This document shows positions 1,499 to 17,943 of a stretch of DNA of 22,134 bases, piece by piece (within the stretch, counting starts at the first letter, position 1; every line of letters starts with the position of its first letter). Where the stretch lies: positions 1 through 22,134 of the IMG/VR virus record IMGVR_UViG_3300049893_002987. One strand, written 5' to 3'. Position numbers and translations under genes: made by a program. The stretch is from a virus. Under the pieces are notes generated by a model. It made no database searches. It was not told where the DNA came from and was given only the letters and a program-made list of their open reading frames with translations.

Positions 1499-2779
1499 AT
1501 GGTCACACTCAGACAGCGCATCAACGCATTTTGGAAACCGCCCGCGTCGCAGGAGACAACGGCGGAGGTGAATCCGTCCGCTGCGGGGGAGGCGACGGTT
1601 TCGGTTTACGAAAAAATGAAAGCGGACCGCGACCGGCTGGCGATCATCAAGACCTGCCGCGCGATGTATGAGACGGATCCGCGCGTGAAGAAGGCGTTGA
1701 GAATGTATGCGACGGATGTGGTGCGCTCCGGTTATTTCGTAAAAACTGCGGATGCCAAAGCATTGGAGATCGCGCAGGCGATGCAGAATCGGCTCGGGTT
1801 GAACAAGAAATTACAGGATGTGACGCGCCTCTCCGGGCGCGACGGCGATTCGTTCTACGAGGTGGTGATCGACGACAACCTGGATATTGTCAAACTTTCG
1901 CGCAAACCCACTTTGCAGATGCGCCGCGCCAGCAATAATTACGACGAGTTCGACAATCCGCAAAAGGCGTTCTGGCTGGGACCCGAAAACCAATACAGCC
2001 CCGAGCCGCCGAAGGATGCGATCTGGTTTGCGAAGTGGCAGATCATCCATTTGCGTTTCGATCATGACGAGGAGAAACGCTACGGCACGCCGATGTGGGC
2101 GTCCGCGACCGGCGCATTCAAGCGCGTGAGCGAGGGCGAGATCGATATTTCCGTGCGGCGCAAGGTGCGGGCGGGGATGATCCTGCATCATGTGGTCGAG
2201 GGGTCGAACAGCGACGTGGAAGCGTACAAGGAAAAAAACAAGGCGGCGGAGGATAACCCGTTCGCAGCGATCCGCAATTATTACACCAACAAGCCCGGCT
2301 CGATCAGCGCGATCCAGGGCGACGCGCACCTGAACGAGATCGCGGATATTGTGCATCACATCGAGACTATGTTCACAGCGAGCGACATCCCGATGGAGCT
2401 GGTCGCTTACGGCGGGGACCTGAACCGCGATGTCCTCGGAGAGAAAAAGGAAGAGTACGACGAGACGCTCGATGACGGGCGCGAATGGCTGAGCGAGGAA
2501 TTCCTGAAACCCCTGCATGAGTTGCAGTGGATGTTGAAGGGCATTTATCCGCAGGACCTTGGTTACAAATTCATCTGGCGCAAGGCGAAGAGCCTGACGC
2601 CGGTGATGCTGAGAGACCTGGCGGATGCGTTGATGCGGATGCGGGTGCTGGGCGCGAAAGAGGAGTTGATCCAGTCGCTTCTGGCGCAGTTTGTGCCGGG
2701 TGTGGATTTGGATATTTTGCAAGGCGACGGTTTGGACAGCACGGCGTTTGCGAATAATCTCAAAGGCTTGAGTATCTAA
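1499..2779 (+). CDS. Phage portal protein
   Basis: A 426-residue protein from ATG 1499 with AAAAGG at 1486-1491. Portal proteins form the dodecameric ring at one capsid vertex through which DNA is packaged and to which the connector binds. Support: the length fits; the region around residues 175-230 has the portal signature, with a W-x-I-I-H-L-R-F strand, YGTPMWASATGAFKRV and a following helix EIDISVRRKVRAG. Further on, a long helical wing carries TASDIPMELVAYGGDLNRDV, like the portal stem region in T4-gp20-like and related families. The N-terminus (VYEKMKADRDRLAIIKTCRAMYETDPRVKKALRMYA) also fits portals that begin with a helical clip over the tail-proximal face. It is placed after the connector-like genes, which is unusual. 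Confidence 0.85.
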   Translation: MVTLRQRINAFWKPPASQETTAEVNPSAAGEATVSVYEKMKADRDRLAIIKTCRAMYETDPRVKKALRMYATDVVRSGYFVKTADAKALEIAQAMQNRLGLNKKLQDVTRLSGRDGDSFYEVVIDDNLDIVKLSRKPTLQMRRASNNYDEFDNPQKAFWLGPENQYSPEPPKDAIWFAKWQIIHLRFDHDEEKRYGTPMWASATGAFKRVSEGEIDISVRRKVRAGMILHHVVEGSNSDVEAYKEKNKAAEDNPFAAIRNYYTNKPGSISAIQGDAHLNEIADIVHHIETMFTASDIPMELVAYGGDLNRDVLGEKKEEYDETLDDGREWLSEEFLKPLHELQWMLKGIYPQDLGYKFIWRKAKSLTPVMLRDLADALMRMRVLGAKEELIQSLLAQFVPGVDLDILQGDGLDSTAFANNLKGLSI

Positions 2780-2788
2780 GGGCAAAAG

Positions 2789-2926
2789 ATGAAAGAAGAA
2801 AGATTTGATTCGCTTCGTAGAGTAATAAACCCTTGGATGAGAAAGTTATTCGGATTGGAAATCTGCAAAATTCATAACAGCCAAAATATATGGATCGGTA
2901 TTGGAATTCGTAATGAACAAAAATAA
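2789..2926 (+). CDS. Small hypothetical protein (45 aa)
   Basis: An ORF of 45 codons from ATG 2789, with AAGGG just after the portal stop (2778-2782, about 6 bases spacing). Its stop lies inside the next gene's 5' end, so the two overlap by 14 bases. It is clearly AT-richer than both neighbours. The peptide is basic (MKEERFDSLRR, MRKLFGLEICK), with no recognisable motif or membrane segment. It could be a real small gene inserted between portal and minor head genes, or a non-coding leader. I see no function. Confidence 0.35.
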   Translation: MKEERFDSLRRVINPWMRKLFGLEICKIHNSQNIWIGIGIRNEQK

Positions 2927-4070
2927 ATTGCTTTTACGGTTGGATGAAGTGGCTTTGGGCGCGCTGGATAAGGCGGCGTTCAAGGCGCTCCTGCGTTTGC
3001 AGGTTTTCTTTACCGGGCGGACGCATGAGTTGATGATCCAGTTTGGGAAGCAGGCGGCGGCGATCTTGATGAAGCACAGCGACGCGGACGGCAAGCTGGA
3101 CGGTCTGCATGGCTACCGGGCGCAAAGCGATCTGATTCAGACGTGGAGCGATACGTTTGCAGTGTGGCAGGCTGAGTTCCTTGCGGCGCGGCGTGAGGCG
3201 GTGGCTTTGCCGTTTGGGGTTTTGGCGGTGAGGCATGAGAGGCTGGTGGTCGAAGGTTCAAGGTTGAAAGTTGAAGGTCGGAATTTGCAACCTTCAAACT
3301 TGCAACCTGTCACCGAATCCATCGAGGATGGCGTGTTCAAGCCGCAGATCGATGTGTTGTTGAAGATCGCGGAAGAATATCTATACGGCGACGGGATCAC
3401 GTTGGATAACCGCATCTGGCGCATCGATGGGGAGGGGCGGGATGCGATCAATAACGTGATCATGCAGGGCATCGCGGACGGTGATTCGGCATGGGGCATG
3501 GCGAAAAAATTGGAGGAGTTCCTTGGGGCGGGCGAGGATTGTCCGCGCTGGACTTCGACGCGGCTGTACGGGCGCACGGCAAAGGATAAGGCGGCAGGCG
3601 ACACTACGGGCTTGCTTTCAGGCGGCGGATGCGATGGACGCGGCGTATCCTACAAGGCTTTGAGACTGGCACGGACGGAGATCCAAAAAATTCACGCGCT
3701 GGCGACGGACAGACTGATGGCGCAGCAGCCCTGGGTGAAGCAGGAGCAATGTCATCTTTCGGCGGCGCATCCCACGGCAGACGAATGCGATGATGTTGTC
3801 AACGGTGGCGAAGGCGGCAAGGGCATTTACCCGGTCGGGACAATCGAGTATCCCCTGCACCCGAATTGTTTTTGTTACAAGACCGCCGTGTTGATGGACG
3901 AGAAGGCATTTACCGATCAGTTGAACGGCTGGTTGAACGGCGAGACGTGGAGCGAGATGGACGATTACGCCTCTTTCATCGGGAGCGATCCCGCTTCGTT
4001 CAATGAAGTTTCACTGATGCCGGATGCGGTCAGCCTGGCGGTCTGGTTGTTTGGAGAGGAGTTTGGATAA
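2913..4070 (+). CDS. Minor head protein (Mu gpF / SPP1 gp7-like)
   Basis: A 385-residue protein. ATG 2913 is preferred over the in-frame TTG 2901 because it gives a usual start, with GGA at 2903-2905. This family sits next to portal genes and is packaged with the capsid to help head morphogenesis and DNA ejection. Support: position right after the portal; a C-terminal region with an arginine/aspartate-rich helix (RLARTEIQKIHALATDRLM); and the diagnostic HPNCFCY motif (residues 316-322, preceded by a strand and turn), which matches the H-P-x-C-x-C zinc-like signature of the family. Residues 114-134 (EGSRLKVEGRNLQPSNLQP and neighbours) are encoded by 7-nt repeats and look like an in-frame insertion. 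Confidence 0.8.
   Translation: MNKNKLLLRLDEVALGALDKAAFKALLRLQVFFTGRTHELMIQFGKQAAAILMKHSDADGKLDGLHGYRAQSDLIQTWSDTFAVWQAEFLAARREAVALPFGVLAVRHERLVVEGSRLKVEGRNLQPSNLQPVTESIEDGVFKPQIDVLLKIAEEYLYGDGITLDNRIWRIDGEGRDAINNVIMQGIADGDSAWGMAKKLEEFLGAGEDCPRWTSTRLYGRTAKDKAAGDTTGLLSGGGCDGRGVSYKALRLARTEIQKIHALATDRLMAQQPWVKQEQCHLSAAHPTADECDDVVNGGEGGKGIYPVGTIEYPLHPNCFCYKTAVLMDEKAFTDQLNGWLNGETWSEMDDYASFIGSDPASFNEVSLMPDAVSLAVWLFGEEFG
3252..3314 (+). repeat. Heptad-repeat insertion inside minor head gene
   Basis: Nine consecutive 7-nt units, 63 bases: GAAGGTT, CAAGGTT, GAAAGTT, GAAGGTC, GGAATTT, GCAACCT, TCAAACT, TGCAACC, TGTCACC. The first half is purine-rich and the second half resembles its reverse complement (AAGGTT versus AACCTT), so the tract can fold on itself. 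63 is a multiple of three, so it adds 21 residues (the NLQPSNLQP stretch) without breaking the frame. Confidence 0.75.
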
Positions 4071-13359: not shown

Positions 13360-13740
13360 ATGTATAGCATTACATACAGTCCCGAAGGCATACCAACCGG
13401 AATCCGGCAAGAGATAGGTCAAAAAATTACTTTCATCCCTCTTGATGAAAGCAATGCAGATTTCCGGGAATTTGTGAAGTGGAATAATACCCAAAATGTA
13501 CCACTGGACTGGCGAACTCCAATCGCTCCGATTGCAGAAGATATTGTTCTGCGATTTGACATGCCCGTCCAAGCCCCCGATTTTCTGGTCGCAACCCCGG
13601 CAATCAATCCAGACCCCGAAAAAGCATTCGATGAAGCCATTGCGGAGATGAAAAAGAAAGAAGGCAACTCAAAATCAATAGCACTAATGGTATTGTCCCT
13701 GACAAAATATCTTGAATCGAAAAAGGCGAAACTAAAATGA
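13360..13740 (+). CDS. Small tail-fibre-associated protein, assembly-like
   Basis: A 126-residue protein from ATG 13360 with AGGAG (13351-13355), which overlaps the fibre stop. It opens with MYSITYSPEGIPTGIRQ and IPLDESNADFREFVKWNN, a pattern (short strand, then I-P-x-D-x-x-N-x-D-x-x-x-F/Y-x-x-W) widespread in small phage proteins next to fibre genes, followed by a Lys/Ala-rich helical end (KAFDEAIAEMKKKEGNS, LTKYLESKKAKLK). A role as fibre chaperone or peripheral fibre component is inferred from position and sequence style. The next gene overlaps by 4 bases (ATGA). Confidence 0.5.
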   Translation: MYSITYSPEGIPTGIRQEIGQKITFIPLDESNADFREFVKWNNTQNVPLDWRTPIAPIAEDIVLRFDMPVQAPDFLVATPAINPDPEKAFDEAIAEMKKKEGNSKSIALMVLSLTKYLESKKAKLK

Positions 13741-15167
13741 GTAAAACCCTACGCAATACCCTGATTGGCGCGGCACTCGCGGCAATTGTGTCGATTATGT
13801 TACTGTCACCAACGGCAGAACCCGCTCGGATTGCCCTTGCCTCCCCTGCACCGTTTACAACCATTCAGGCGGCGGTCAATGCGGCGCAGGCGGGGGATAC
13901 GCTCGTCATAACGGCGGGAACATATACGGAGCAGGTGACAATCTCAAAACCACTGACCCTACAGGCGGGCGGGATAGTAAAGGTCAATGGCTTCATCATC
14001 AAAGCCGACGATGTGACGATTGAGGGATTCGACATCACCAGCCCGAAAACATCAACCGGCTTCGGGGTGAGGGCATATAACTCACGCTGTAAAATCCTTG
14101 ATAATTACATACACGATACGTGGTGGGACGGGATTTTGCTTGAGGCAACATCAAGCAACTGCCTCATTAGTGGAAACAGGATTGAACGCCCTAGTCAAAG
14201 CGGGGCGGAAGTGCGCGGGACAAACCACATCATCCAAAACAACGAGGTATGGAATACATTACAAACCCCGCCCGATTCGACATTCACCCGCTCACAGGGC
14301 GCGGATGCGGATGGATTCCGCTTCTTTGGCAGTGGACACCAATTCATCGGTAACTATGTCCACGATATAAAAGCAGGGACAGCAACCAACCCCGACCCGC
14401 ACACGGATTGTTTTCAGTCATGGAAGGATACTGACCCGAACAGAAAGCCCGCAAGTGACATTGGCTTTTATGATAATGTATGCTTTTTATCGTGGGATTT
14501 TGGCGGTAATACCGTAAACGCATCCTCGAAAATTTTCCAATTCGGCGGCGTCAGTAATGTAATTGCCAAAAACAACATTTCCCGGTCACGGATGGTTTCA
14601 ATTATCCAGAGTAGTTCGACCAATGTTCAACTGACCAATAACACGTTCATCGGTGACGGGTCATTATCGTGGGGCGTTGAGATACTGAACTCCACCTATA
14701 TCACAATTCGGGACAACATTTTTTACCACCAAGAAAACGGGTACGGTTATTTGCCAAAACGCGGAAGCACAGGGTTGAACGCCGGACACAACTGCGTATT
14801 TACAACCACTCGCACCCCGCCCGGCTCACCCATGCCCGGTGATGTTTGGGGGCTTGACCCGCTTTTCGTAAGCTATCTTAGCAATGACTTTCATCTGCAA
14901 CCAAGTTCCCCGTGTTTGGGTATTGGGGTGATTTACGACCAATCGCCTATTCTAACAAGCACATATACCCCCACAGGGTCAACGACACCCATTCCCACAA
15001 GCGCCACACCGACCAAAACACAAATCCCCATAATGAGTGTGACGCCTACCATTACAGTGACCAAAACCATAACACCATCACAAACCGCAACTAGAACGCC
15101 ATCCGCCGTCCCTACGGTTTGTGAGACGGCGGTAAGCACTCACTATTGGTTCATGGGATGCAAATAA
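13737..15167 (+). CDS. Secreted-type right-handed beta-helix protein (NosD/pectate-lyase-like fold)
   Basis: A 476-residue protein; ATG 13737 overlaps the previous stop (ATGA). Residues 1-35 look like a signal peptide: basic start (MSKTLRN), hydrophobic core (LIGAALAAIVSIMLL), then Ala/Pro-rich. The sequence then enters a typical beta-helix: FTTIQAAVNAAQAGDTLVI, repeated turns such as IEGFDI, ILDNYIHD, ISGNRIE, IIQNNEVWNT and VQLTNNTFIGD at about 20-30-residue spacing up to about 340. The C-terminus from about 415 is Thr/Pro/Ser-rich (TPTGSTTPIPTSATPTKT), as on secreted Chloroflexota proteins. It ends the late operon. It could be a polysaccharide-acting tail-spike-like enzyme, or a moron made by the lysogen and exported; the signal peptide favours the latter. 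No catalytic residues identified. Confidence 0.7.
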   Translation: MSKTLRNTLIGAALAAIVSIMLLSPTAEPARIALASPAPFTTIQAAVNAAQAGDTLVITAGTYTEQVTISKPLTLQAGGIVKVNGFIIKADDVTIEGFDITSPKTSTGFGVRAYNSRCKILDNYIHDTWWDGILLEATSSNCLISGNRIERPSQSGAEVRGTNHIIQNNEVWNTLQTPPDSTFTRSQGADADGFRFFGSGHQFIGNYVHDIKAGTATNPDPHTDCFQSWKDTDPNRKPASDIGFYDNVCFLSWDFGGNTVNASSKIFQFGGVSNVIAKNNISRSRMVSIIQSSSTNVQLTNNTFIGDGSLSWGVEILNSTYITIRDNIFYHQENGYGYLPKRGSTGLNAGHNCVFTTTRTPPGSPMPGDVWGLDPLFVSYLSNDFHLQPSSPCLGIGVIYDQSPILTSTYTPTGSTTPIPTSATPTKTQIPIMSVTPTITVTKTITPSQTATRTPSAVPTVCETAVSTHYWFMGCK

Positions 15168-15575: not shown

Positions 15576-15604
15576 TTGACAAATTATCAATACGGTAGTA
15601 TTCT
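15576..15604 (+). promoter_or_regulatory. Sigma-70-like promoter of the regulator
   Basis: TTGACA (15576-15581, perfect -35), a 17-bp spacer, and TATTCT (15599-15604, 4 of 6 -10 consensus). The transcript would begin about 15611, leaving a leader of roughly 40 bases before the regulator's ATG. The -35 lies within an inverted repeat (TTTGTCA 15562-15568, TGACAAA 15577-15583) and the -10 within another (AATAC 15589-15593, GTATT 15598-15602). Confidence 0.75.
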
Positions 15605-15653: not shown

Positions 15654-15965
15654 ATGGAAGAACAACTGTTCCAAAAAACTGTAAAAGAATATCGAAACCA
15701 AAGCGGGCTATCCGTGCGGAGATTCGCCGAAGCCCTCACCGAAAAACTGGTCAACACCAACCTTTCGGGTAACACGATCAACCAGTGGGAAAACGATCCC
15801 AACCGCGCACCAGATCTTTATTTTTTCTTCAATTGTTTCACCACCTATACCGACTGGCGCATGTACTTTGCCGTGGATGCGCTCAAAGCCTTGATGCCGC
15901 ATGTCTTCGACAGCGGCATGGTCACGTTCCATCTGCCAAAGCATAACGAAACTATACAGCCGTAA
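15654..15965 (+). CDS. XRE-family-like helix-turn-helix regulator
   Basis: A 103-residue protein from ATG 15654 with a perfect SD (AAAGGTGA, 15643-15650). Residues 12-47 form a HTH of the XRE/Cro type: an N-terminal helix, then SGLSVRRFAEALTEK, the short turn and second helix of which (LSGNTINQWENDPNRAP) ends with the Q-W-E-x-D/N-x-x-R-x-P style of lambda-repressor-like domains. The C-terminal half is hydrophobic and may dimerise or contact effectors. It stands alone at the start of the lysogeny/integration region, beneath a promoter with several palindromes, so it is a candidate repressor of that promoter and of others. No cleavage (LexA-like) domain is visible, so induction by RecA would need something else. 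Confidence 0.65.
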   Translation: MEEQLFQKTVKEYRNQSGLSVRRFAEALTEKLVNTNLSGNTINQWENDPNRAPDLYFFFNCFTTYTDWRMYFAVDALKALMPHVFDSGMVTFHLPKHNETIQP

Positions 15966-15969
15966 GTCG

Positions 15970-15978
15970 AATTTGTCA
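15970..15978. promoter_or_regulatory. AATTTGTCA motif, possible operator half-site
   Basis: AATTTGTCA at 15970-15978 is the reverse complement of TGACAAATT at 15577-15585 (in the -35 of the regulator promoter) and of 22090-22098 (near the right end of the window). It lies immediately after the regulator's stop and before the small membrane ORFs. A fourth match at 11642-11650 is inside the fibre gene and is probably chance. Confidence 0.3.
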
Positions 15979-15995
15979 GAAAGTCACGGTCAAAA

Positions 15996-16070
15996 ATGGC
16001 GAAATTTTGGCTCTTTCTTATTCTTTTCTGCTCAGTTCTGCTCATCATCTTGGTGCTTGTATGGAAATAA
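15996..16070 (+). CDS. 24-residue hydrophobic membrane peptide
   Basis: ATG 15996 to TAA 16068-16070 encodes 24 residues: MAKFWLFLILF, a run of hydrophobic residues, and a final WK. The whole peptide is one transmembrane helix with basic ends. It lies 30 bases after the regulator gene and overlaps the following gene by 10 bases, giving translational coupling. The SD is weak. It could be a type I-toxin-like or holin-like peptide, or a leader peptide. Length and composition are clear from sequence; the function is unknown. Confidence 0.4.
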   Translation: MAKFWLFLILFCSVLLIILVLVWK

Positions 16071-16297
16071 TCATCATCATTCTTCTCATTCTCGTGATCG
16101 CTCTCTCGGCTGTGATGCTGTATCGCGAATTTCAGCGGGTGAGTGAGCGCATGGGAAAACTCGAAGAACGTGTCCACCGTGCTGCTCTCAACCGTGAAAA
16201 AGAAGAACGCCAGCTTGGGATTAGCTTCATCGAAAATGCCGAAGCCTGGCTCGATCAAGTAATGGCGGAAGGCACAAAACGCGATGAACAAAAATAG
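16061..16297 (+). CDS. Small membrane protein with coiled coil
   Basis: 78 residues from ATG 16061. An alternative TTG at 16007 would translate the 24-residue peptide's bases in another frame and is less likely. Residues 1-23 form a transmembrane segment (MEIIIIILLILVIALSAVML), and residues 24-60 a charged coiled coil (EFQRVSERMGKLEERVHRAA, then NREKEERQLG). This is the layout of a type II membrane-anchored helper, as in phage inner-membrane spanins or small membrane-bound assembly proteins, but no lipobox partner is seen. It is linked to the upstream 24-residue peptide (10-base overlap) and to the next gene (3-base gap). Confidence 0.5.
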   Translation: MEIIIIILLILVIALSAVMLYREFQRVSERMGKLEERVHRAALNREKEERQLGISFIENAEAWLDQVMAEGTKRDEQK

Positions 16298-16300
16298 CCT

Positions 16301-16597
16301 ATGCAAACCGACTTCCGCATTGAATGGGTCCCGCTTCCCGCAGAACGCGCAGGCGAGTGGCGGCACGCCATCGAATTGATCGCCCAAATCATCAAGGAGT
16401 ATGCCATGACCCTATCCACCGACAATCTCTATCGCTTCGCATGGACGGACCCGGAAAAAGAAGGTGCCCAATATGGAGCCTGGCTGTTCAACAGTCCCGC
16501 CGAGGCAAAGGAACCCCTCAAGGTCATGCAGATGTTATTCCGCAGCTTCACGATCTGGCTCGAAGACCGCAATGGGAAACGTGTGGTGGTCGAATGA
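16301..16597 (+). CDS. Hypothetical protein (98 aa)
   Basis: A 98-residue protein from ATG 16301, three bases after the previous stop. No clear SD, so translation is probably coupled. The sequence starts MQTDFRIEWVPLPAERAGEW and continues as an amphipathic mixed alpha/beta protein with a hydrophobic core (KEPLKVMQMLFRSFTIWLED). No family is recognised. The next ORF overlaps by 4 bases (ATGA), so it is part of the same small-gene operon (15996-16719). Confidence 0.5.
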   Translation: MQTDFRIEWVPLPAERAGEWRHAIELIAQIIKEYAMTLSTDNLYRFAWTDPEKEGAQYGAWLFNSPAEAKEPLKVMQMLFRSFTIWLEDRNGKRVVVE

Positions 16598-16719
16598 TCA
16601 TCCTCGTAACAGCCCTCCTCATTGGCAAAGACGCCCCGAAAGATTCCTTCTACCTTGCCGTCCTCGAATTTTTTCTCGAAATCGAAATTGTCGTTTTCCT
16701 GTTCAACGCCTTGCCATAG
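16594..16719 (+). CDS. Small hydrophobic protein (41 aa)
   Basis: ATG 16594 overlaps the preceding stop (ATGA) and the frame stops at 16717-16719, giving 41 residues. It has hydrophobic ends (MIILVTALLIG; EIEIVVFLFNALP) with a short charged middle (KDAPKDSFY). It may be a one- or two-segment membrane protein, or just a small residue of a longer gene. Coupled overlap makes translation plausible. Nothing in it indicates function. Together with 15996 and 16061 it makes three hydrophobic small ORFs in 720 bases. Confidence 0.4.
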   Translation: MIILVTALLIGKDAPKDSFYLAVLEFFLEIEIVVFLFNALP

Positions 16720-16787
16720 GCGCATAAACAAAGCCCGGCGAAATTATTTAAATTGATTGGGGGTAGGGCGCAACTCCCGAATGGCAT

Positions 16788-16813
16788 CCCTGCGATTGTT
16801 GCGGATCGCAGGG
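16788..16813 (+). repeat. 9-bp perfect hairpin
   Basis: CCCTGCGAT (16788-16796), loop TGTTGCGG, and ATCGCAGGG (16805-16813). A GC-rich perfect stem. It has no T-run and sits directly before the tRNA-like minihelix. Confidence 0.7.
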
Positions 16814-16816
16814 CGC

Positions 16817-16860
16817 GGACTGGACGGCGCAAGATAGAAGGTTCGAACCCTTTACAGTCC
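16817..16860 (+). other. tRNA T-arm/acceptor-like minihelix, candidate att core
   Basis: T-stem GAAGG (16837-16841) pairs with CCTTT (16849-16853), one G-T pair; its loop is TTCGAAC, the canonical T-loop. The seven bases after the T-stem are ACAGTCC (16854-16860), and GGACTG at 16817-16822 pairs with CAGTCC at 16855-16860 as an acceptor stem would. Only 14 bases separate the 5' acceptor strand from the T-stem, so D and anticodon arms are absent. Tyrosine integrases commonly use tRNA 3' ends as attachment sites, and one lies 157 bases downstream, so an att identity is likely but unproven. Confidence 0.4.
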
Positions 16861-16864
16861 CATA

Positions 16865-16885
16865 GGCAGAGCTGGTTACTCTGCC
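16865..16885 (+). repeat. 7-bp hairpin next to the minihelix
   Basis: GGCAGAG (16865-16871), 7-nt loop, CTCTGCC (16879-16885). Perfect stem with a 7-nt loop, the geometry of an anticodon arm. It begins four bases after the minihelix. Confidence 0.65.
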
Positions 16886-16913
16886 GAAGAGAGCAAGCAC
16901 GTTCGTTCTCTCC

Positions 16914-16961
16914 TCCTTTGAAAGGCTTGCATCTGGCAACGGGTGCAAGCCTCACAAAGGA
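16914..16961 (+). promoter_or_regulatory. 16-bp hairpin enclosing an SD-like sequence, integrase leader
   Basis: TCCTTTG (16914-16920) pairs with CAAAGGA (16955-16961) and AGGCTTGCA (16923-16931) with TGCAAGCCT (16944-16952); a 2x2 internal loop (AA/CA) lies between them. The outer stem pairs an anti-SD-like TCCTTT with AAAGGA. It stands 55 bases before the integrase start and looks like an attenuator or translational switch, though no alternative partner has been tested. Confidence 0.6.
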
Positions 16962-17016
16962 AAAGACCCTAAAAATCGATCAGCGACCAGTCACACCAAA
17001 GGAGAAACCCATAACA

Positions 17017-17943
17017 ATGCAAACCCAAACTAATTTCCGGTTTTCAATTCTTCTCACCACCTGGCAGGACCAATTCAAAGCCTACCTTGAAGCCGACCAT
17101 CGCAAGGTCACGCGCCGCCAATTGGATGACAAGTCCATTCGGCTTGCGGTCCAACACATGCGCCGCTTCAGTCTCTGGTATCAAGCGCAGTTCCAGCAAG
17201 CCTTCGAGCCTGTCATGCTCACCAACTATGACCTGCATCTCTATCGCAAGGTCTCGCTCGAAAATGAAAAGGTCAAAGCCGCCACATGGAACTCCCGCTT
17301 TTGGGCGCTCGGAATTTTCTGTATCTGGATCGGGCGACCTGAATTGATGGATGGCATCGAGCAGAAGTCCGCCGGTCGCGCCTCGACTAAGCACCGTTCG
17401 CTCGCCTCAGACGAATATCATCGCCTGATTCACACCATCGAGCTTGATCCACGCCGCGCATTGAGCGTTTTCGAAGCCTACAACGCATCGCGTAATTGGG
17501 CGGTCGTATCGCTCATGCTCTTCGCCGGTCTGCGCGTTGAAGAAGTTTTTCTCCTGCAAGTGGAAGATATCACCATCGGCGAACGCAGTGGCAATGTGTT
17601 CGTCCGCAATGGCAAGGGGAGTAAAGAACGCAACGTACCGCTCAACCTCATGGCGCGACGCGCCTTCTCTCAATATCTCGCGGGTCGCCCCGCATCGGGT
17701 CCGCTCTTCGATGTGTCCATTCGCACCATGCAGCGCATCGTCAGTGATTTGGGTCAGCGCATCGACGTGCCCGATATGACCTGTCACTGGTTGCGCTATC
17801 ACTTCGCCAAGATGCTGGAGAAGGCAGGCAAGCCCATTGAAATGATCCGCGACCTGTTGGGACATTCCTCCATCGAAATCACGCGCCGCTACCTGCGCTC
17901 CTCGATGGAAGATCTCCAGTCCGCTGTGGAAGAGGTGATGTGA
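17017..17943 (+). CDS. Tyrosine recombinase / phage integrase
   Basis: A 308-residue protein. ATG 17017 is chosen because AAAGGAG lies upstream (17001-17004 end of GGAG, 12-base gap, rather long); an in-frame extension to 16753 would cross the hairpins. Catalytic residues are all visible: Arg173 in FAGLRVEEVFLLQ, Lys203 in NGKGSKERNVPL, His257-x-x-Arg260 in CHWLRYHFAK, His283 in LLGHSSIEIT and the nucleophile Tyr292. The N-terminal part (TWQDQFKAYLEADHRK, RFSLWYQAQFQQ) is a core-binding domain of SAM-like type. Its role is integration and excision at the attachment site. The following gene overlaps by one base. Confidence 0.93.
   Translation: MQTQTNFRFSILLTTWQDQFKAYLEADHRKVTRRQLDDKSIRLAVQHMRRFSLWYQAQFQQAFEPVMLTNYDLHLYRKVSLENEKVKAATWNSRFWALGIFCIWIGRPELMDGIEQKSAGRASTKHRSLASDEYHRLIHTIELDPRRALSVFEAYNASRNWAVVSLMLFAGLRVEEVFLLQVEDITIGERSGNVFVRNGKGSKERNVPLNLMARRAFSQYLAGRPASGPLFDVSIRTMQRIVSDLGQRIDVPDMTCHWLRYHFAKMLEKAGKPIEMIRDLLGHSSIEITRRYLRSSMEDLQSAVEEVM

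Follow-up and report, generated by a model that had tools for sequence, protein, structure and literature searches.

The gap upstream of the tyrosine integrase gene of a phage contains a 45-nt element that can fold into the acceptor/T-arm half of a tRNA. Comparative sequence analysis indicates that this element is a genuine, conserved, anticodon-less tRNA-like RNA. With a probability that we put at about 0.55, in view of its sequence context and of analogy to known systems, it would mark a processing site between cistrons, where cleavage by RNase P and RNase Z would leave a hairpin at the 5′ terminus of the integrase message.

RESULTS

A tRNA-like element between the regulator block and the integrase gene

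The window, i.e. the whole stretch of DNA that was analysed, is one IMG/VR virus record of 22,134 bases. It encodes portal, head-morphogenesis and tail tape-measure genes, a Cro-like regulator, a tyrosine integrase and a primase-like protein; a right-handed beta-helix protein resembling a tail spike is encoded at 13737-15167 (PF13229, phrog_7458). The region studied is the gap between the regulator block, whose last stop codon ends at 16719 and whose genes have the same order in relatives, and the integrase ATG at 17017. A promoter scan gave a single promoter-like + strand site near these blocks, at 15576-15604. Between the two blocks neither a promoter-like nor a terminator-like site was found by scans, of which the promoter scan lets non-sigma-70 sites escape. 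The genes and the parts of the element are as follows.

15654-16719, + strand: upstream regulator block, whole
15654-15965, + strand: Cro-like regulator
16007-16297, + strand: 96-aa membrane-like protein
16301-16597, + strand: 98-aa MQTDF protein
16594-16719, + strand: 41-aa ORF
16817-16861, + strand: tRNA-like element, 45-nt acceptor/T-arm minihelix (sequence, seven other phage contigs, covariation)
16817-16823, + strand: acceptor 5′ strand GGACTGG
16824-16836, + strand: 13-nt linker ACGGCGCAAGATA, containing GGCGCAAG
16837-16841 and 16849-16853, + strand: T-stem GAAGG/CCTTT, four Watson-Crick pairs and one G-U
16842-16848, + strand: T-loop TTCGAAC
16854-16860, + strand: acceptor 3′ strand ACAGTCC
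16861, + strand: discriminator C
17017-17943, + strand: tyrosine integrase gene, the first gene past the leader (PF00589, 7.8e-23; phrog_216 integrase)

The order of the element is thus GGACTGG-ACGGCGCAAGATA-GAAGG-TTCGAAC-CCTTT-ACAGTCC-C (16817-16861), and the canonical tRNA features present are an acceptor stem and a T-arm with a TTCRANY-type loop. The T-loop and five-pair T-stem described in an earlier sequence-only reading are there, one T-stem pair being G-U. The pairing of CAGTCC with GGACTG, also described there, was found as six pairs, with G opposite A at the seventh position (6/7 pairs). In agreement with the same reading, the D and anticodon arms are absent from the window element, which has only the 13-nt linker in their place; ARAGORN reported no tRNA gene and Rfam no match at gathering score at the element. 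CCA is not encoded. As to the hairpins said to flank the element, the upstream one (16788-16797/16804-16813; nine Watson-Crick pairs and one G-U) and the 7-bp one were recovered; the later one forms 13 pairs in an isolated fold, versus the 16 bp claimed. A block of ∼50 bases with a 10-bp hairpin, lying just 5′ of the element (window 16765-16816), is identical in contig L013 (minus strand, about 977-1030) but not in the other members.

The element occurs in other phages and in three forms

Relatives were collected by an integrase search and DNA patterns (L002, L008, L011, L012, L013, L087 and L096/L097). The element was found in the same gap, between regulator block and integrase block, in seven other phage contigs; the L002 integrase is 50% identical to that of the window. 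In all relatives the element lies between the regulator block and an operon that includes the integrase where the sequence reaches far enough. The gene immediately following it varies, being an integrase, an ATPase-like protein, a membrane protein or a small ORF. The earlier idea of an RNA controlling the integrase is therefore too narrow, although in contigs of sufficient reach an integrase does appear further on. The reading frame ahead of the integrase, in phase with it, is open, but a coding reading of the region was rejected because relatives place a different gene after the element.

Virus Rctr41k, the sole relative found by BLAST of phages and plasmids, carries a complete tRNA-Thr(CGT) in the exact slot: a stop codon lies 11 nt upstream of it, and the same TAGGCGG hairpin follows directly. 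The L011 element begins 1 nt after the upstream stop codon, and the arrangement is similar in L002, Rctr41k and the virus behind contig L111. The element is hence found at an mRNA end or an intercistronic position. Three grades can be distinguished: (i) the full tRNA of Rctr41k; (ii) an acceptor, a 5-bp hairpin with GG in its loop (D-like) and a T-arm, with a linker of 27-28 nt (L087, L096 and element E1 of L111); and (iii) in the window group, an acceptor, an 11-13-nt linker holding GGCGCAA or a close variant, and a T-arm. Every tRNA-like member lacks the anticodon arm, and all keep the T-arm and acceptor.

A third phage type, the virus behind L111, has one tRNA-like in each of three neighbouring intergenic gaps that run from a stop codon to the next start; all three are on the coding strand. 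L112 4761-3748 (minus strand) covers three tRNA-likes in three nearby gaps of one small virus, which has a GP88-like gene. A probable further, distant tRNA-like is present at 792-838 of L006 (linker 15 nt; E 0.07 with model R1); this element, in another virus, starts inside the stop codon of the upstream gene. In 383 kb of sequence from member phages a scanner yielded 17 hits, some of them full tRNAs and a few due to chance, compared with 3.2 on average in shuffled sequence.

The element is missing from some relatives whose integrases are similar, and it is therefore not essential. No tRNA-like was found in the control virus vir526. A leader with a hairpin and CTCCTCCTT, without a tRNA-like, was observed at about 3170-3310 of L089. 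Model R1 gave two weak hits against 396 genomes, neither of them a tRNA-like on reading, and the hits of a genome pattern scan were read as chance matches, except for L019, which is binned with a Chloroflexi MAG and belongs to a relative of Rctr41k. In L019 a methyltransferase-like gene (2563-3255) is inserted immediately upstream of tRNA-Thr; the gap ahead of the element may serve as a site for cargo. Other candidates were set aside as ordinary tRNAs (L109, L110) or chance matches (L005, L007, L009, L010). A known Rfam family was rejected as well, neither the window element nor its relatives matching one above the gathering score; the best sub-threshold resemblance of L096 was to mascRNA-menRNA (E 0.22; 19 bits against a 42.5-bit cut-off), and L012 resembled tRNA (E 0.033). 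A tmRNA fragment was also rejected, as the core is not a tmRNA 3′ end.

Acceptor and T stems covary among relatives

The 297-nt region folds better than dinucleotide shuffles on both strands (z -3.4 on the + strand, z -3.8 on the - strand). The isolated 45-mer is not unusually stable against shuffles (z -0.7) and, given the T-arm, a 5′ partner as good as that of the window arises by chance in about 8% of shuffles. For these reasons the acceptor match is only suggestive when judged from the window alone, and the argument therefore rests on the relatives.

Among six close relatives, 96.1% of cells are paired versus 90.8% in shuffles, none of 500 shuffles being as high, and four pairs changed on both sides. 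Ten aligned elements, with linkers removed, gave 93.3% standard pairs versus 70.3% in shuffles (0/500 as high) and changes on both sides in 9 of 12 pairs, counts that are inflated in that the acceptor 5′ strands of divergent members were picked as the best upstream match. T-stem counts are much less biased, though the search patterns fixed GGTTCGA in some members. Sliding the partner by one column lowered pairing in the ten elements to about 53%. In a corrected test, in which the choice of partner was repeated on shuffled sequence, p ranged from 0.001 (L111 E1) to 0.28, with a Fisher p of about 1e-5 over eight elements. The TTCGA of the T-loop is invariant across the aligned tRNA-likes. Many changes in the acceptor and T-stem are G-U wobbles, as expected for RNA; a DNA-level cruciform was judged less likely because so many acceptor changes are G-U. 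Together, covariation and the corrected test strongly indicate selection on a coaxial acceptor/T-stem of about 12 bp. The folding and covariation check that the sequence-only reading had proposed for 16720-17016 thus came out in favor of a structured RNA: the region beats shuffles on both strands and the acceptor and T stems covary in relatives.

A conserved leader follows the element

Right after the discriminator, members have in common a leader composed of a TAGGC hairpin, a CTCCTTT anti-Shine-Dalgarno stretch, a long hairpin and the Shine-Dalgarno (SD) of the next gene. TAGGC begins one base after the discriminator in the tRNA-like members. In the window the leader features are these.

16862-16886, + strand: hairpin 1, conserved ATAGGC hairpin of 7 bp (16865-16871/16879-16885) with loop CTGGTTA; same spacing in tRNA-like relatives and after the Rctr41k tRNA
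16888-16911, + strand: hairpin 2, AGAGAGC/GTTCTCT (fold); equivalents in most relatives, absent in L008
16913-16920, + strand: anti-SD stretch CTCCTTTG (folds of 10 leaders)
16923-16952, + strand: hairpin 3, long, 13 pairs (16923-16935/16940-16952; fold); a long hairpin of different sequence at the same place in relatives
16997-17004, + strand: SD of the integrase CAAAGGAG, partner of the anti-SD stretch (sequence, fold)

The stem of hairpin 1 shows an A-U to G-C double change among relatives. A pseudoknot between its loop and ACCAG was not significant (combined p 0.09) and was dropped. In the best fold of the window, CTCCTTTG (16913-16920) pairs with the SD at 16997-17004; alternatively, 16914-16920 pairs with the local 16955-16961. 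One or the other pairing is present in most folds of 10 leaders, and several relatives prefer the local one. The conservation of the anti-SD stretch is in part a product of ascertainment, since several members were picked up with search patterns that required CTCCTTT, a sequence to which any SD is complementary. These alternative pairings, as modelled, suggest a translational switch.

DISCUSSION

Proposed role in message processing

According to the processing reading, the regulator and integrase blocks would be co-transcribed, and their transcript folds into the tRNA-like at the gap, as the covariation shows. Host RNase P would then cut before G16817 and RNase Z after the discriminator at 16861. 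The upstream message would thereby be freed and the integrase message would gain a new 5′ end with a hairpin within 3 nt; the hairpin and its spacing are present in the sequence, and they would stabilise the message. Finally, the leader hairpins and the possible CTCCTTTG/SD pairing would set translation of the downstream gene.

We favor this reading because the parts kept in all forms, the acceptor and T-arm, are those that RNase P contacts: the enzyme touches the stacked acceptor/T stems and T-loop, and the rest of the tRNA is dispensable for binding (PMC11221534). It is also favored because the acceptor and T stems covary, with G-U wobbles; because the element or a full tRNA stands right before the same TAGGC hairpin in seven contigs and Rctr41k; because the gaps are same-strand, with no promoter- or terminator-like site seen between the blocks and a hairpin at the would-be new 5′ end; and because the L111 virus has its three coding-strand tRNA-likes in three gaps. 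The sub-threshold matches of L096, to a known RNase P/Z product, and of L012, to tRNA, point the same way. The full tRNA, the D-like-hairpin form (L087, L096) and the bare acceptor/T-arm of the window group appear interchangeable in the processing role. Several points weaken the reading: RNase P contacts are weaker without an encoded CCA, a full tRNA is a better substrate than a bare minihelix, the window acceptor has only six pairs, the isolated 45-mer is not unusually stable, and some relatives do without the element.

Alternative explanations

The main rival is a tRNA-mimic translational switch, which we regard as unlikely. Here the element would bind a host factor (an aminoacyl-tRNA synthetase, EF-Tu, a tRNA-modifying enzyme or RNase P), and this would decide between local pairing of CTCCTTTG and masking of the SD that belongs to the next gene. 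Mimicry of the thrS type is established for E. coli, the leader hairpins are conserved and, in the folds, CTCCTTT can pair with either of two partners that exclude each other. However, the acceptor sequence, the discriminator (C, A or T) and the linker vary too much for one synthetase, and the element has no anticodon. A switch of this kind also fits poorly with the anti-SD leader of L089, which has no tRNA-like, with the loop-loop pseudoknot result and with the full tRNA-Thr in the Rctr41k slot. That same tRNA could indicate simple decay, in which the phage group once carried a tRNA, lost the arms and kept a remnant by inertia, and the graded forms, from a full tRNA to one with a D-like hairpin and then a bare T-arm, would fit. 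We nevertheless consider decay improbable: it would not spare acceptor and T-arm together, whereas in divergent phages compensatory changes have preserved the helices, and the T-loop TTCGA is the same in all aligned tRNA-likes.

The sequence-only reading had left two interpretations standing. The tRNA-like RNA is upheld at the level of structure, by covariation and the full tRNA-Thr in the Rctr41k slot; an attP carrying a tRNA 3′ end is not, and its odds are as poor as those of decay. As an attP core, the T-arm/acceptor half would correspond to the 3′ terminus of a host tRNA gene, with GGTTCGAACCCTTTACAGTCC as its last bases, and integration would restore the host tRNA. The position upstream of the integrase and the Rctr41k tRNA agree with this, and tRNA 3′ fragments are common at integration sites (PMC9897764). 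Yet the core, searched for as that reading had advised, does not occur anywhere in 396 genomes of the presumed host class, hence at no tRNA 3′ end there; this class is that of the Chloroflexi MAG holding L019, a binning from which the host is inferred, so that the attP verdict is not final. In addition, other viral contigs lack the core, tmRNA is ruled out as a target and a search at 1e-40 found no relative of the integrase in the 396 genomes. For an attP core, identity to the host tRNA is required at the 3′ end, but it is there that the Rctr41k tRNA departs most from host tRNAs: its matches among the tRNAs of 60 other genomes of the family are at 72-86%, the best of them ending at the T-loop (query position 71 of 82). 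Also against an attP are the covariation of the complementary 5′ acceptor strand, which it does not need, the three copies in one virus (L111) and the retention of the element though the L008 and L096 integrases are only 23-24% identical to that of the window.

Relation to known systems and significance

The closest parallels to the processing reading are plant mitochondrial t-elements, tRNA-like structures at mRNA ends that are cut by RNase P and RNase Z to define transcript ends and are CCA-tailed and not aminoacylated (PMC11658184). The phage elements resemble them in lying at mRNA ends or between cistrons, cleavage being presumed for the phage. They differ in sitting in phage operons with a conserved leader following, and t-elements are described with a typical tRNA-like secondary structure, whereas no anticodon arm, and often no D arm, is present in the phage elements. 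Another reduced tRNA-like, mascRNA/menRNA (RF01684), is a substrate of RNase P and RNase Z (PMC4919922) and the best sub-threshold match of L096; it derives from an animal lncRNA 3′ end, however, and homology of the phage elements is not above threshold (19 vs 42.5 bits). RNase P also acts on phage RNAs, riboswitches and polycistronic mRNAs (PMC4919922, PMC11143913). Among these, the C4 antisense RNA of P1/P7, M3 RNA and bacterial polycistronic mRNAs (PMC11143913) are likened to the phage element by substrate class only, not by structure. Phage-carried tRNA genes share the slot, as the tRNA-Thr(CGT) of Rctr41k shows, but the window element cannot decode and is not called by ARAGORN. Like tRNA-located attP/attB cores, the element has T-arm and acceptor sequence and an adjoining tyrosine integrase; in contrast to them, it has no matching host tRNA in the 396 genomes and its 5′ acceptor strand covaries.

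More generally, and at slightly less than even odds, we propose from these comparisons that phages may have evolved a class of tRNA-like punctuation marks without an anticodon, the smallest being a bare acceptor/T-arm of 45 nt. Host tRNA-maturation enzymes would cut the polycistronic message at these marks, several in a row in some viruses, and each downstream mRNA would receive a hairpin-capped 5′ end. In the laboratory, acceptor/T-arm minihelices serve as minimal substrates for RNase P; if phage operons contain natural minihelices under selection, this would show viruses using tRNA-end processing as programmed mRNA shaping. Such elements may be common, because tRNA finders miss them, as ARAGORN did in the window. 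The element is a directly testable system, requiring one short transcript and two host enzymes.
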